Part shown: positions 53,549 through 63,407 of the stretch, piece after piece
How the letters are laid out: every line of letters begins with the position of its first letter
Numbering within the stretch: the first letter of the stretch is position 1
NCBI GenBank assembly: GCA_025353765.1
Contig: JANXOD010000015.1
Coordinates: 62,001 to 126,000, forward strand
Reading direction: 5' to 3'
DNA from: Sphingobacteriales bacterium
Lineage (GTDB): Bacteria; Bacteroidota; Bacteroidia; Sphingobacteriales; Sphingobacteriaceae
Length of the DNA stretch: 64,000 bases
Program-made: the position numbers and the translations under genes
The notes under the pieces: generated by a model
What the model was told of the DNA's origin: nothing
Database searches by the model: none
What the model saw: only the letters and a program-made list of their open reading frames with translations

Positions 53549-53566
53549 CTTATGCATAATAAAAAA

Positions 53567-53920
53567 GCAAGCCTGTAAGCCGGGTTCTGTTTCCCCGAAA
53601 ACCGGGAGTTCTATCATTTATCTGGCCATGCTATTGCTAACGTGATCTAACGACCTACCCACTGACATCGGACGAGCAGCCCTACATACGTCAGCCTATT
53701 TGGTCTTTCAACTCCTGGGGTTTACCGCAAGCTACATCACTATAACTTACCGTGAGCTCTTACCTCACATTTTCACCTTTTCCCAAATTTGCATCTGGGT
53801 AGTTTATTTTCTGTGGCACTTTCCGGCTCATATGAATGATCCTTCCCGTTAGGAAGCAAGATGCTCTGTGTTGCCCGGACTTTCCTCTCCGATATACACC
53901 GGAGCGATAGAACAGCTTGC
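53567..53920 (-). ncRNA. rnpB: RNase P RNA (class A)
   Basis: About 354 nt, the catalytic RNA that trims tRNA 5' ends. On the minus strand the 5' side contains GAGGAAAGTCCGGGC (the P4-proximal conserved region, 53873-53887) and the 3' side contains ACAGAACCCGGCTTA (53577-53590), both universal signatures. The ends are set by helix P1: GCAAGC at the 5' end pairs with GCTTGC at 53567-53572, and a run of T follows. An open reading frame antisense to its 5' half is spurious. The 5' end lies 5 bases after a perfect -7 element. Confidence 0.95.
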
Positions 53921-53925
53921 AGGTG

Positions 53926-58636: not shown

Positions 58637-59523
58637 TTAATGCAGTGGTCTGCGTTTAATGATACCACCTTTTATTTCATTAATAGCACTCATAACCATA
58701 AATGCTTTTCTATCTATCTGCTCAACTTCTTCTTTTAGTTTTTGAACTTCAAGCCTTGTAACCACGGTAAAGATAATGTCGATATCTTTATTTTTAAATT
58801 GAGATTCTATTGATCCACGTTCTCCTTTATAAATAGTGACACTTCTGTTTAAATTTTTTATAATGGCCTCACGTATTTGTTTGCTTTTTGAGGATACAAT
58901 GGTCACACCTGTATATTCTTCAATTCCCTGGATGATGAAATCTACTGTTTTTGATGCTGATAAATAAGTCAATATGGAATATAAGGAAGTTTCGATATTT
59001 AATACAAAAGCAGCAGCCAAAAAAATGACGACATTAATGAGCAGAATAATATCACCCATAGTTAAAAAACTTTTACGGTTAATATAAACGGCCAAAATTC
59101 AGTTCCATCAATTACGCAGCCACCTCTAATAGCAAGGCCAATACCTGCTCCAAGAAAGAAACCACCAAAAATAGATATCAGGAGTTTATCATTAGTAATT
59201 ACAGGGAAATCAACAAAATATATAATGGCGGCAAGAGCAACAATGGCTAAAGATGTGCTAATGGCAAAATTTTTTCCGATTTGTTTGACTCCCAAAAATA
59301 TGAAAGGAATATTGAATACAATAAGCCAGATAGAAACTGGTACACCCGTTAATTGATTAGTAAGAAGTGATATTCCGGTAATTCCGCCATCTATAAAATG
59401 ATTAGGAACTAAAAAACCTTTTAAACCAAATGCAGCCAAAAGGATACCTAAAAGCACCAAACCTGCTCGGCCTAATTTTATTTTAAGCCTGAAAATATCG
59501 CTGGACCGCCTATTTGCCTTCAT
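58637..59523 (-). pseudogene. YitT family membrane protein, frameshifted
   Basis: Two overlapping frames together make one YitT protein. The first (59523 to 59062) has the five-helix membrane part: FGLKGFLVPNHFIDGGITGISLL and GAGIGLAIRGGCVIDGTE. The second (from 59095 to 58637) continues with AVYINRKSFLTMGDIILLINVVIF and the cytosolic DUF2179 domain (SIESQFKNKDIDIIFTVVTRLEVQKL). The junction is at a T run on the minus strand (59094-59097): one more T, or a -1 slip, would join GTE-F-L-AVYINRK. Either a real one-base deletion, a sequencing error or ribosomal frameshifting; the rest of both parts is intact. Confidence 0.8.
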
Positions 59524-59544: not shown

Positions 59545-59576
59545 TTTGCAGCTAAACAAAAGATTATTCATATTTG
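59545..59576 (+). promoter_or_regulatory. Promoter of the trp leader and operon
   Basis: TTTG (59545-59548), 20 bases, then CATATTTG (59569-59576; 7 of 8 to TAnnTTTG). The predicted RNA start is about 59582, seven bases before the leader peptide ATG. Confidence 0.65.
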
Positions 59577-59588
59577 CTACTATATAAA

Positions 59589-59663
59589 ATGAGAAAAAAT
59601 AACGTAAATACAGCATGGTGGTGCCAAACAATTACTCGTTTGGCAATCAGGAAAAGTATGTAG
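59589..59663 (+). CDS. trpL: Tryptophan operon leader peptide
   Basis: A 24-codon open frame (ATG 59589, TAG 59661) beginning MRKNNVNTAWWCQ and ending RLAIRKSM. Codons 10 and 11 (59616-59621) are tandem UGG Trp codons, and they directly abut the first hairpin strand. Its role would be to measure charged tRNA-Trp: a ribosome stalled at the Trp codons exposes strand 2 of the leader, one that reaches the stop codon covers it. No Shine-Dalgarno sequence, as usual in this phylum. Short length means it is missed by normal gene finders. The evidence is structural agreement with the attenuator, not homology. Confidence 0.82.
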   Translation: MRKNNVNTAWWCQTITRLAIRKSM

Positions 59664-59717
59664 CGTTCAAAATAAAAGAAACTAAATATAAGGGTTGCCA
59701 CAAGCAGCCCTTTTTTT
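59622..59717 (+). promoter_or_regulatory. trp attenuator (1:2, 2:3 and 3:4 stems)
   Basis: Stem 1:2 is TGCCAAAC (59622-59629) with GTTTGGCA (59638-59645), 8 perfect pairs, starting right after the Trp codons. Antiterminator 2:3 is TGGCAATC (59641-59648) with GGTTGCCA (59693-59700), 8 pairs with one G-U. Terminator 3:4 is AAGGGTTGC (59690-59698) with GCAGCCCTT (59704-59712), 9 pairs with one G-U, loop CACAA, then seven T. Stems 2:3 and 3:4 are mutually exclusive. A ribosome stalled at codons 10-11 would cover strand 1 and favour 2:3, allowing read-through to trpD, whose ATG is 24 bases after the T run. Low charged tRNA-Trp therefore raises expression. Confidence 0.85.
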
Positions 59718-59741
59718 ATATCTAATTGCCAAGGAAAGCTT

Positions 59742-60728
59742 ATGAAACATATATTAACCCATTTATTTGAACAGAAATCTTTAGGACGTTTAGAGGCTAA
59801 AGAAATTCTGATAAACATAGCATTAGGAAAGTATAATCACTCTCAAATGGCAGCTTTTATGGCCGTTTATTGTATGCGTAATATTACAATAAATGAGTTA
59901 GAAGGCTTTCGTGATGCAATGCTTGAATTGTGCTTAAGAACAGAGTTAGAAGATTATGATTTAATCGACCTTTGTGGCACAGGTGGTGATGGGAAAGATA
60001 CATTTAATATATCAACACTTGCTTCTTTTATTGTAGCCGGTGCCGGTTACAAAGTTGCTAAGCATGGTAATTATGGTGTTTCTTCTAGCTGTGGCTCGTC
60101 TAGTGTAATGGAATATATGGATTATAAATTCAGCAATAATTCTGATCAATTGAGAACAGATTTAGATCAGGCAGGGATTTGCTTTTTACATGCACCCTTA
60201 TTTCATCCGGCAATGAAAACCGTAGCTCCCATTCGTAAAGAATTAGGGATAAAAACTTTCTTTAATATGCTGGGGCCAATGGTTAATCCGGCGCAGCCGA
60301 AACATCAGTTAGTTGGGGTATTTAGCTTAGAACTAGCCCGTTTATATGCTTATCTCTATCAAAAAACGGATAAAAAATATACCATTTTACATGCGTTAGA
60401 AGGTTACGATGAAGTATCATTAACCTGCGATTTTAAAACTTTCTCTAATTCTGGAGAGCATATTCATTCTATTGCGGATTTAGGCTTTGAAAAGATTAAT
60501 CCTAAAACAATTACAGGCGGAAGTTCAGTTCAGGAATCGGCAGCAATTTTTAAGTCTGTGCTAAAAGGTGCAGGAACTACAGAACAAAATAATGTGGTAT
60601 TATGCAATGCGGCCATAGCCATTCACACTATAAAACCTGAGAATTCATTTGCAGATTGCTTTTATGAAGCCGAAGAATCCTTATTAAGTAAACGAGCTTT
60701 AACAAGCTTTAAGAGGCTGGTATCATGA
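59742..60728 (+). CDS. trpD: Anthranilate phosphoribosyltransferase
   Basis: 328 residues. Transfers phosphoribose from PRPP to anthranilate. The PRPP loop is DLCGTGGDGKDTFNIST near residue 77-93, followed by KVAKHGNYGVSSSCGSSSVME and the anthranilate-site FHPAMKTVAPIRKELGIKTFFNMLGPMVNPAQPKHQ. First gene of the operon, directly behind an attenuator. trpE and trpG, which usually precede it, are not upstream. Overlaps trpF by 4 bases. Confidence 0.95.
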   Translation: MKHILTHLFEQKSLGRLEAKEILINIALGKYNHSQMAAFMAVYCMRNITINELEGFRDAMLELCLRTELEDYDLIDLCGTGGDGKDTFNISTLASFIVAGAGYKVAKHGNYGVSSSCGSSSVMEYMDYKFSNNSDQLRTDLDQAGICFLHAPLFHPAMKTVAPIRKELGIKTFFNMLGPMVNPAQPKHQLVGVFSLELARLYAYLYQKTDKKYTILHALEGYDEVSLTCDFKTFSNSGEHIHSIADLGFEKINPKTITGGSSVQESAAIFKSVLKGAGTTEQNNVVLCNAAIAIHTIKPENSFADCFYEAEESLLSKRALTSFKRLVS

Positions 60729-61351
60729 AGATTAAGGTCTGTGGTATGAGAGAGCCGAAGAACATCCGGCTAGTATCTTCACTTGAACCTGATTACATGG
60801 GCTTTATATTTTATAAAAATTCAAAAAGATATGTAGGAAAAAACTTTATTACCCCTGAAATTTCAAAATCTGTTGAAAAGGTGGGGGTTTTTGTTAATCA
60901 GAAATTTCAACAGGTCATTGATCTGGCAGGAATTTATCAAATCGGAACTCTCCAATTGCATGGTGATGAATCACCACAGTTATGTGATAATCTTCGTGAA
61001 CAGTTCACCATCATCAAAGCATTTAGCATGGATGAGAATTTTGATTTTAAAATCCTGGATAAATATCAAAATGTAGTTGATTATTTCTTGTTTGATGCAA
61101 AAGGATTAGGCTATGGAGGAAACGGAACCAGCTTTGACTGGAATCTTTTAGAAGCGTACGATAATGAAATTCCATTAATACTAAGCGGAGGTATTGGTTT
61201 ACATAATTTAAATAACCTACTGGAATTCATCAAAAAAACTAGTCTGAATGTTGCAGCTATTGATGTAAACAGCAGTTTTGAAATCAGTCCGGGATTAAAA
61301 GATATTCAAAAAATAAAAACAGCAATCAACTTAATTAAAACAAATAAATGA
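60725..61351 (+). CDS. trpF: Phosphoribosylanthranilate isomerase
   Basis: 208 residues, a single (beta/alpha)8 barrel. The catalytic Cys7 is in [12 protein letters not shown] and the catalytic Asp is in [19 protein letters not shown] near residue 118-136; the phosphate-binding [14 protein letters not shown] and [14 protein letters not shown] segments close the barrel. Not fused to trpC, and no trpC lies between it and trpD. Overlaps trpB by 4 bases. Confidence 0.93.
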
Positions 61352-62529
61352 ATTATCACGTAAATGAAAAAGGGTATTTCGGTGATTTTGGAGGTGCCTA
61401 TACTCCGGAAATGCTTTATCCTAATATTGAAAATCTGCGTAAGCAATATTTGGATATAATTTATGAACCTAAATTTCAGGAAGAGTTTCATCAATTATTA
61501 AAAGATTATGTAGGTCGGCCATCGCCTTTATTTTTAGCGGAGCGCTTATCTGCAAAATACGGCACTACCATTTATCTCAAACGCGAAGATTTGAACCATA
61601 CAGGTGCCCATAAAATTAATAATACCGTAGGACAAATATTATTAGCATCCCGTTTAGGAAAAAAACGGATCATTGCCGAAACTGGTGCTGGTCAGCATGG
61701 TGTAGCAACTGCTACTGTTTGTGCCTTAAAAGGCTTAGAATGCATTGTTTATATGGGCGAAGTCGATATTAAGCGGCAGGCACCCAATGTAGCCCGTATG
61801 AAAATGATGGGAGCAAAGGTTATTCCAGCAACTTCGGGCAGCAAAACATTAAAAGATGCAACAAATGAAGCCATGCGTGACTGGATAAATAATCCTGTTG
61901 ATACGCATTATATTATCGGATCTGTCGTAGGCCCGCATCCTTATCCGGATATGGTTGCCCGATTTCAATCTGTTATTTCTGAGGAAACAAAAAAACAGTT
62001 AAAAGAAAAAACCGGAATTGAAACGCCAGATTATGTACTGGCCTGTGTAGGTGGAGGAAGTAATGCGATGGGCATATTTTATCATTTTTTGGATGATGAA
62101 GATGTAAAACTTATTGCTATTGAAGCCGCAGGCAAAGGAGTTTACAGTGGCAAATCGGCAGCTACCACGTTTTTAGGTAAAGAAGGAGTTTTACATGGAA
62201 GCAAATCCATTTTAATGCAAACAGAAGACGGACAAGTTATTGAACCTTATTCTATTTCCGCAGGCTTAGATTATCCAGGAATTGGCCCTCAGCATGCTCA
62301 CTTGTTTAAAGTAAACCGGGCTAAATATGTAAGCATTACAGATGATGAAGCTATACAGGCTGGCAAACTATGTGCAGAGTTAGAAGGTATAATTCCTGCA
62401 ATTGAAACGGCTCATGCGCTTGCTTATTTGGAGGAAATGACGTTTGCGGGAAATAAAACTGTAGTGATTTGCTTGTCTGGCAGGGGTGATAAAGATTTGA
62501 ATACCTATATGAACTATTTTGATTTGTAA
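61348..62529 (+). CDS. trpB: Tryptophan synthase beta chain
   Basis: 393 residues. Condenses indole with serine using PLP. The PLP Lys lies in [18 protein letters not shown] near residue 76-93; [20 protein letters not shown] near 105-124 and the PLP-phosphate loop [12 protein letters not shown] near 226-237 follow. The N-terminal [15 protein letters not shown] is the TrpB1 type that pairs with TrpA. Third gene of the operon. Confidence 0.96.
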
Positions 62530-62636: not shown

Positions 62637-63407
62637 ATGAACAGAATAAAACAACTTTTTGAACGAAAGAAAGAACGGGTACTTTCTATTTATTTTACTG
62701 CCGGTTACCCTGAATTGGATAGTGCACTGGATATTGCCGAAGCTCTTGAGAAAGCCGGAGCTAATTTTATTGAAATAGGATTTCCTTATTCAGATCCACT
62801 GGCAGATGGACCGGTTATTCAAAATAGTTCGCTTGTGGCATTAAACAACGGAATGACACTTGAAATACTGTTTAAGCAATTGAAAGACTTACGCAACCGG
62901 GTTTCCATTCCTCTTTTATTGATGGGATATTTTAATCCGGTATTGCAATATGGAGTAGAAAATTTTTGTAAAGCTTGTGCTGATATTGGTGTGGATGGAG
63001 TCATTATTCCAGATCTGCCGATGTATGAATACGAGGAAATGTATAAAGACTGCTTCCTTAAAAATAACATCAGTAATATTTTATTGGTCACTCCGCAAAC
63101 TTCTGATGAGCGCATACGGAAGATAGATGAATTAAGTAATGGATTTATATACCTGCTTTCATCCTCATCAACCACAGGCAAAAATCTTACTGTATCAGCT
63201 GAAACGGATGCTTATTTTTCAAGAATACAGAATATGCATCTTAAGAATCCAACAATGATTGGCTTCGGAATATCCGACAGAACAAGTTTTGACAAGGCAT
63301 CTCAATTTACTAGTGGTGCAATTGTTGGCAGTGCTTTTGTGAAGTTTTTAGATACCCCAAATGCTTTAGAGAATTTTCCGGGTTTTATAAAATCAATTCG
63401 TGCTTAA
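62637..63407 (+). CDS. trpA: Tryptophan synthase alpha chain
   Basis: 256 residues, TIM barrel. Splits indole-3-glycerol phosphate to indole. The catalytic Glu and Asp are in NFIEIGFPYSDPLADGPVIQ near residue 42-61; loop 6 is LLSSSSTTGKN and the phosphate site is GFGISDRTS and GAIVGSAFVKFL. Forms the tunnelled complex with the trpB product. Last biosynthetic gene of the operon; the next gene follows after 80 bases. Confidence 0.95.
   Translation: MNRIKQLFERKKERVLSIYFTAGYPELDSALDIAEALEKAGANFIEIGFPYSDPLADGPVIQNSSLVALNNGMTLEILFKQLKDLRNRVSIPLLLMGYFNPVLQYGVENFCKACADIGVDGVIIPDLPMYEYEEMYKDCFLKNNISNILLVTPQTSDERIRKIDELSNGFIYLLSSSSTTGKNLTVSAETDAYFSRIQNMHLKNPTMIGFGISDRTSFDKASQFTSGAIVGSAFVKFLDTPNALENFPGFIKSIRA

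Follow-up and report, generated by a model that had tools for sequence, protein, structure and literature searches.

The trpDFBA locus and its leader

The window, here the whole 64,000-nucleotide stretch of Sphingobacteriales DNA that was analysed (genome G000), contains a trpDFBA operon headed by a short leader region (Table 1). A preliminary description of this DNA proposed a complete ribosome-mediated attenuator in this position. The promoter-like boxes, 24-codon leader, tandem UGG codons, hairpins, T run and trpD are all located where it placed them, and gene calls and gene order agree that the leader heads trpDFBA. The possibility that the terminator serves the upstream gene (59062–59523, minus strand) was ruled out, as that gene is divergent. 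Elsewhere in the window, a class A bacterial RNase P RNA was identified at 53560–53923 on the minus strand (250.5 bits).

Table 1. Features of the trp leader and operon (window coordinates unless another sequence is named)
Feature	Position	Strand	Basis or remark
-33 box TTTG, Bacteroidota-type promoter	59545..59548	+	T-T-(G/T) kept at the same spacing in 104 aligned upstream regions
-7 box CATATTTG (consensus TAnnTTTG)	59569..59576	+	TTTG in 104/105 loci
Leader peptide ORF MRKNNVNTAWWCQTITRLAIRKSM, 24 codons, ATG at 59589, stop at 59661-59663	59589..59663	+	Counterparts in 28/29 and 77/78 trpD loci
Tandem UGG, leader codons 10-11	59616..59621	+	2-3 Trp codons in all relatives except L009 (one) and L032 (no leader)
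1:2 hairpin (blocks antiterminator)	59601..59667	+	Folding and covariation
Outer stems of 1:2	59601-59605/59663-59667, 59608-59611/59656-59659	+	Folding
Inner stems of 1:2	59619-59629/59638-59649	+	Folding
Strand 2, TGGCAATC, partner of strand 3	59641..59648	+	Complementarity
Strand 3, GGTTGCCA, partner of strand 2 (antiterminator) or strand 4	59693..59700	+	Complementarity
3:4 intrinsic terminator with seven-T run	59690..59717	+	99-100% of alignment cells paired, with both-side changes
trpD (anthranilate phosphoribosyltransferase)	59742..60728	+	Named from sequence; ATG 24 bases past the terminator T run
trpF	60725..61351	+	Sequence, gene order
trpB	61348..62529	+	Sequence, gene order
trpA	62637..63407	+	Named from sequence and position
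Further trp attenuator, upstream of trpEGC	618-757 of L003 (G000, contig C16)		Leader MIREINILNYWWPVITTAPGTGILK, terminator ACCCGACG/CGTTGGGT

A -33/-7 promoter is typical of Bacteroidota. The TTTG motif ends 5–20 nt (median 10) 5' of the leader AUG in 104 of 105 loci, and a second T-rich box is situated about 25 nt further upstream. Read as a promoter of this type, the two boxes would place the 5' end of the RNA near the leader AUG. In the window, the position of the promoter would put the leader only some seven bases downstream of the RNA start, and the leader lacks a Shine–Dalgarno site. Translation initiation in Bacteroidota is not reliant on such sites.

The terminator in the window reads AAGGGTTGC-CACAA-GCAGCCCTT (59690–59712), with seven Ts at 59711–59717. 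The preliminary description placed the 1:2 hairpin directly after the Trp codons. An inverted repeat is indeed present there (GCCAAAC/GTTTGGC, 59623–59629/59638–59644), but the conserved 1:2 structure is longer, and takes in the Trp codons as well as an outer AUAC/GUAU stem. The Trp run in the window is UGG UGG UGC, in which UGC stands where most relatives have a third Trp codon and generates a perfect 7-bp GCCAAAC/GUUUGGC pairing; the replacement may be compensatory. In the 64-kb window no other short ORF combines tandem Trp codons with a terminator downstream, and none was found in 30 Markov sequences of 64 kb each. The 162-nt leader folds 2.2 sd below shuffled sequences.

As leads to further attenuators, HisG and IlvD were sought in the genome, which is reported to be 99.8% complete, and were not found; the same search was positive in 13–14 of 14 control genomes. 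From its gene content, the organism is probably a histidine and branched-chain amino acid auxotroph which retains regulated synthesis of tryptophan.

Conservation and pairing of the leader

Comparison was made with the nearest available genomes, giving a set of 60 including that of the window, 45 of which have trpD; 30 trpD loci were analysed. One of these (L030) ends at a contig edge and was left out. Of the 29 loci with enough upstream DNA, 28 have a leader ORF that contains Trp codons and, after it, a terminator. Most of these leaders have three Trp codons, and the terminator arms are GGGUUGC/GCAACCC or variants of this. The leader MFNKYANLCWQMRNHLAIT of G005 (L009) has a single Trp codon and is the weakest sensor of the set. 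Upstream of trpD in G021 (L032) the leader ORF is gone and the terminator (GGTTGCC/GCAACC) is kept, and this region is, judging from these remnants, a decayed attenuator. Matches to TGGTGGTGG numbered 65 in the genome of the window, against 61 in the control, a count that is uninformative.

Public genomes were also scanned, which yielded 80 named trpD loci, mostly from Pedobacter, Mucilaginibacter and Sphingobacterium. Within Sphingobacteriaceae the leader ORF is found at 77 of the 78 named loci where trpD heads its operon, although these loci, like those above, are kin and the counts are not independent. The lone exception (L157) ends at a contig edge, yet matches R1, a model made only from trpD leaders of Sphingobacteriaceae (including the window), for which E-values are rough. 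In the other two loci (L191 and L192, from Cyclobacteriaceae and Flammeovirgaceae), trpD lies inside a contiguous trpEGDCFB operon.

Across 28 leaders, 85% of alignment cells in 1:2 and 3:4 are paired, compared with 36–47% when the arms are slid; 15 pairs have changed on both sides, and none of 500 shuffles scored as high. In 79 further matches, 81% of cells are paired against 27–51% when slid, and cells changed on both sides number 120 (41 in shuffles); these figures lean towards the model since this alignment was fitted to it. The alignments indicate that 1:2 and 3:4 covary strongly. For 2:3, 95% of cells are paired (14–52% when slid), and complementarity is present in every leader, the weakest at -7.0 kcal/mol. 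The mean 2:3 duplex energy is -11.3 kcal/mol, compared with -5.9 kcal/mol for shuffled strand 2 and -3.7 and -2.1 kcal/mol for neighbouring stretches. The 2:3 arms are nearly invariant and almost without covariation (15/5000 in a swap test that ignores kinship), so covariation provides no test of this pairing. The preliminary description had looked to relatives for conserved UGG codons and for covariation in all three stems; this was borne out for the UGG codons, 1:2 and 3:4, but 2:3, although present, hardly varies.

A computed switch and alternative explanations

The effect of a ribosome was computed for 105 leaders by folding transcripts that end at strand 3 with a masked footprint, assumed to extend from -16 to +12 of the first A-site base (about 29 nt), in an equilibrium calculation. 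A ribosome with its A site at either of the first two Trp codons leads to 2:3 in every one of the 105. In the absence of a ribosome 1:2 forms in 95% of leaders and 2:3 in 25%, and with the ribosome at the stop codon 2:3 forms in 8%. When the stall is moved along the leader, codons -1 to +3 relative to the first Trp give 100% antiterminator, and from codon +6 onwards the figure does not exceed 21%. For the window leader, the antiterminator is produced by stalls at codons 9–14 and no others. The antiterminating stall thus maps to the conserved Trp codons, in agreement with the ribosome-mediated attenuation first proposed for this locus. When full-length transcripts are folded, 3:4 is lower in energy, also if a ribosome is stalled. 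This indicates that the switch must be kinetic, with the order of synthesis deciding the outcome.

With this footprint, a ribosome at the stop codon of the window leader covers about 59645–59673. It was previously suggested that it would cover strand 2 (then placed at 59638–59645), and this is not the case: strand 2 is not hidden, and 1:2 can re-form behind the ribosome. In seven of 28 leaders (L010, L025, L026, L027, L029, L031 and L033) the stop codon precedes the end of strand 2, which is more enteric-like, and the family thus includes both arrangements.

Attenuation is supported by conservation of the Trp codons, by covariation in both 1:2 and 3:4, by 2:3 complementarity in every leader and by the masking result, and trpDFBA is very probably controlled by a ribosome-mediated transcription attenuator. 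RNA polymerase would start a few bases 5' of the leader AUG, and a ribosome would start on the 24-codon peptide. A shortage of charged tRNA-Trp would make the ribosome stall at codons 10–11 and melt strand 1, including the Trp codons; the freed strand 2 could then pair with strand 3, preventing formation of the terminator and allowing read-through into trpD. With plentiful tryptophan, the ribosome would reach the stop codon beyond strand 2 and depart, 1:2 would re-form behind it, strand 3 would pair with strand 4, and transcription would end at the T run near 59717. Without translation, 1:2 should also form and transcription end.

The terminator is strong and close to trpD, and in G021 it has outlasted the leader ORF. 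Both observations would fit a constitutive leader, in which a fixed partial terminator is combined with an ORF that only shields or primes translation of trpD, with no sensing of tryptophan. This is very unlikely, given that nearly all relatives retain tandem or triple Trp codons in a fixed position relative to strand 1, that a mutually exclusive 2:3 pairing is kept in all leaders, and that trpE has the same design with other arms. TRAP-like proteins, T-boxes and riboswitch-type systems control trp genes in Bacillota, and a trans factor or ligand-binding RNA site of this sort could in principle act on the same terminator, the ORF being incidental. The conserved feature is, however, the coding of Trp, and an Rfam scan of this strand up to an E-value of 10 gave only Bacteroid-trp and low-scoring chance matches, so that sensing of this kind seems extremely improbable. 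An antisense match to preQ1-II (22.7 bits; cut-off 47) was also judged to be due to chance.

The leader may have a role in addition to attenuation. The leader peptide peTrpL of Sinorhizobium meliloti is reported to act in trans (PMC7298713), and a discrete RNA of approximately 135 nt would be expected here under Trp-rich conditions. In part of the genus the peptide is conserved past the Trp codons, but the RNA stems explain peptide conservation outside these codons, and an additional trans-acting role for the released RNA or peptide is considered improbable.

The trpE attenuator and relation to known systems

In Sphingobacteriaceae the trp pathway genes are split. All trpD loci analysed are trpD-F-B, or trpD-F where the contig ends, and the trpE loci are trpE-G-C, two of them ending early. 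In the genome of the window, trpEGC is preceded by an attenuator with the same architecture as that of trpD, but with different arms (strand 2 GCGCCCGGG, strand 3 ACCCGACGC). Each of the 30 trpE loci examined has a Trp-codon leader in front of it, with GTG as the start codon in two; strand 2 resembles GCGCCGGG and strand 3 CCCGACGC. Masking had a weaker effect than in the trpD leaders but in the same direction, strand 3 being paired in 93% with the ribosome at Trp, 47% with no ribosome and 43% with the ribosome at the stop codon. R1 gives weak matches at 21 of the 30 trpE loci, and at 20 of these the match spans the entire leader; the trpE leader of the window's own genome was not found by R1. 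These matches are consistent with, but do not prove, a remote common origin of both leaders.

It is a new detail that the two halves of the split trp operon, trpEGC and trpDFBA, are each headed by a separate attenuator and that the switch arms differ between them; a literature search that omitted most subscription journals turned up no earlier description of a split trp operon with such a pair of attenuators. This pairing would keep the split pathway under one signal. Somewhat more tentatively, and with slightly less than even confidence, the two attenuators may be copies of a single ancestor, the 2:3:4 arms of which are by now unrelated, both acting on transcripts that are nearly leaderless and lack Shine–Dalgarno sites; their strict conservation would then point to tight coupling between the ribosome and RNA polymerase in Bacteroidota. 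The trpD leader provides a natural reporter for the question of transcription–translation coupling in this phylum.

The preliminary description allowed that related trp leaders might already be catalogued for Bacteroidota, and this is so: Bacteroid-trp (RF01692) was described by Weinberg et al. (2010; PMC2864571) and is in Rfam. The switch is therefore not new in kind. Positions 1–131 of the 131-position RF01692 model align to 59569–59699, covering the AUG, UGG, hairpin and start of the terminator, although many model pairs are not kept and the score (29.0 bits; E 0.19 for 301 bases, 0.42 for the whole genome) is below the gathering cut-off of 49. Only one of the 60 genomes passes this cut-off. 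R1 retrieves loci in other families, upstream of trpE, and 15 of 18 retested exceed the RF01692 cut-off; the window's own R1 score is no evidence, as R1 was built with it. The end-to-end alignment and the recovery by R1, with a score below the cut-off, make the window leader a divergent relative of Bacteroid-trp which would work in the same way, with no claim to formal membership. Other-family trpE leaders L103, L105 and L109 (e.g. MKRNNVNNTAWWWHFRKLDVA) were also found by R1 and score too low for RF01692, so that the leaders missed by the Rfam model are not confined to Sphingobacteriaceae. The Sphingobacteriaceae leaders add to the catalogued Bacteroid-trp attenuators an entire family in which the reference model fails.

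The window leader lies upstream of trp biosynthesis genes in a member of Bacteroidota, the location given for RF01692, and shares with that family a leader ORF bearing UGG, a long hairpin across the Trp codons, the 5' arm of a terminator and trp genes downstream. It differs in its strands 2–4 (GGCAAUC with GGGUUGCC, against ..GGCUUGUC), and in heading the trpDFBA half of a split operon rather than trpE. Elsewhere in the phylum, attenuation of leader-peptide type has been inferred from transcriptomes for amino acid operons of Flavobacterium psychrophilum (PMC9723704), and Bacteroid-trp has been noted upstream of the trp operon of that species (PMC6414381); those predicted attenuators belong to another family and do not head trpDFBA. 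The literature search yielded nothing further on ribosome-mediated attenuation in Bacteroidetes. The enteric Trp_leader family (RF00513) is absent among Rfam matches to the window leader up to an E-value of 10. The enteric leader, as in Escherichia coli trpL, nevertheless follows the same logic: Trp codons in tandem, the three pairings 1:2, 2:3 and 3:4, and a T run. The window leader differs from it in having no Shine–Dalgarno site, in its AUG 12 nt after the -7 box, and in a stop codon placed beyond strand 2, such that 1:2 would re-form behind a ribosome at the stop.
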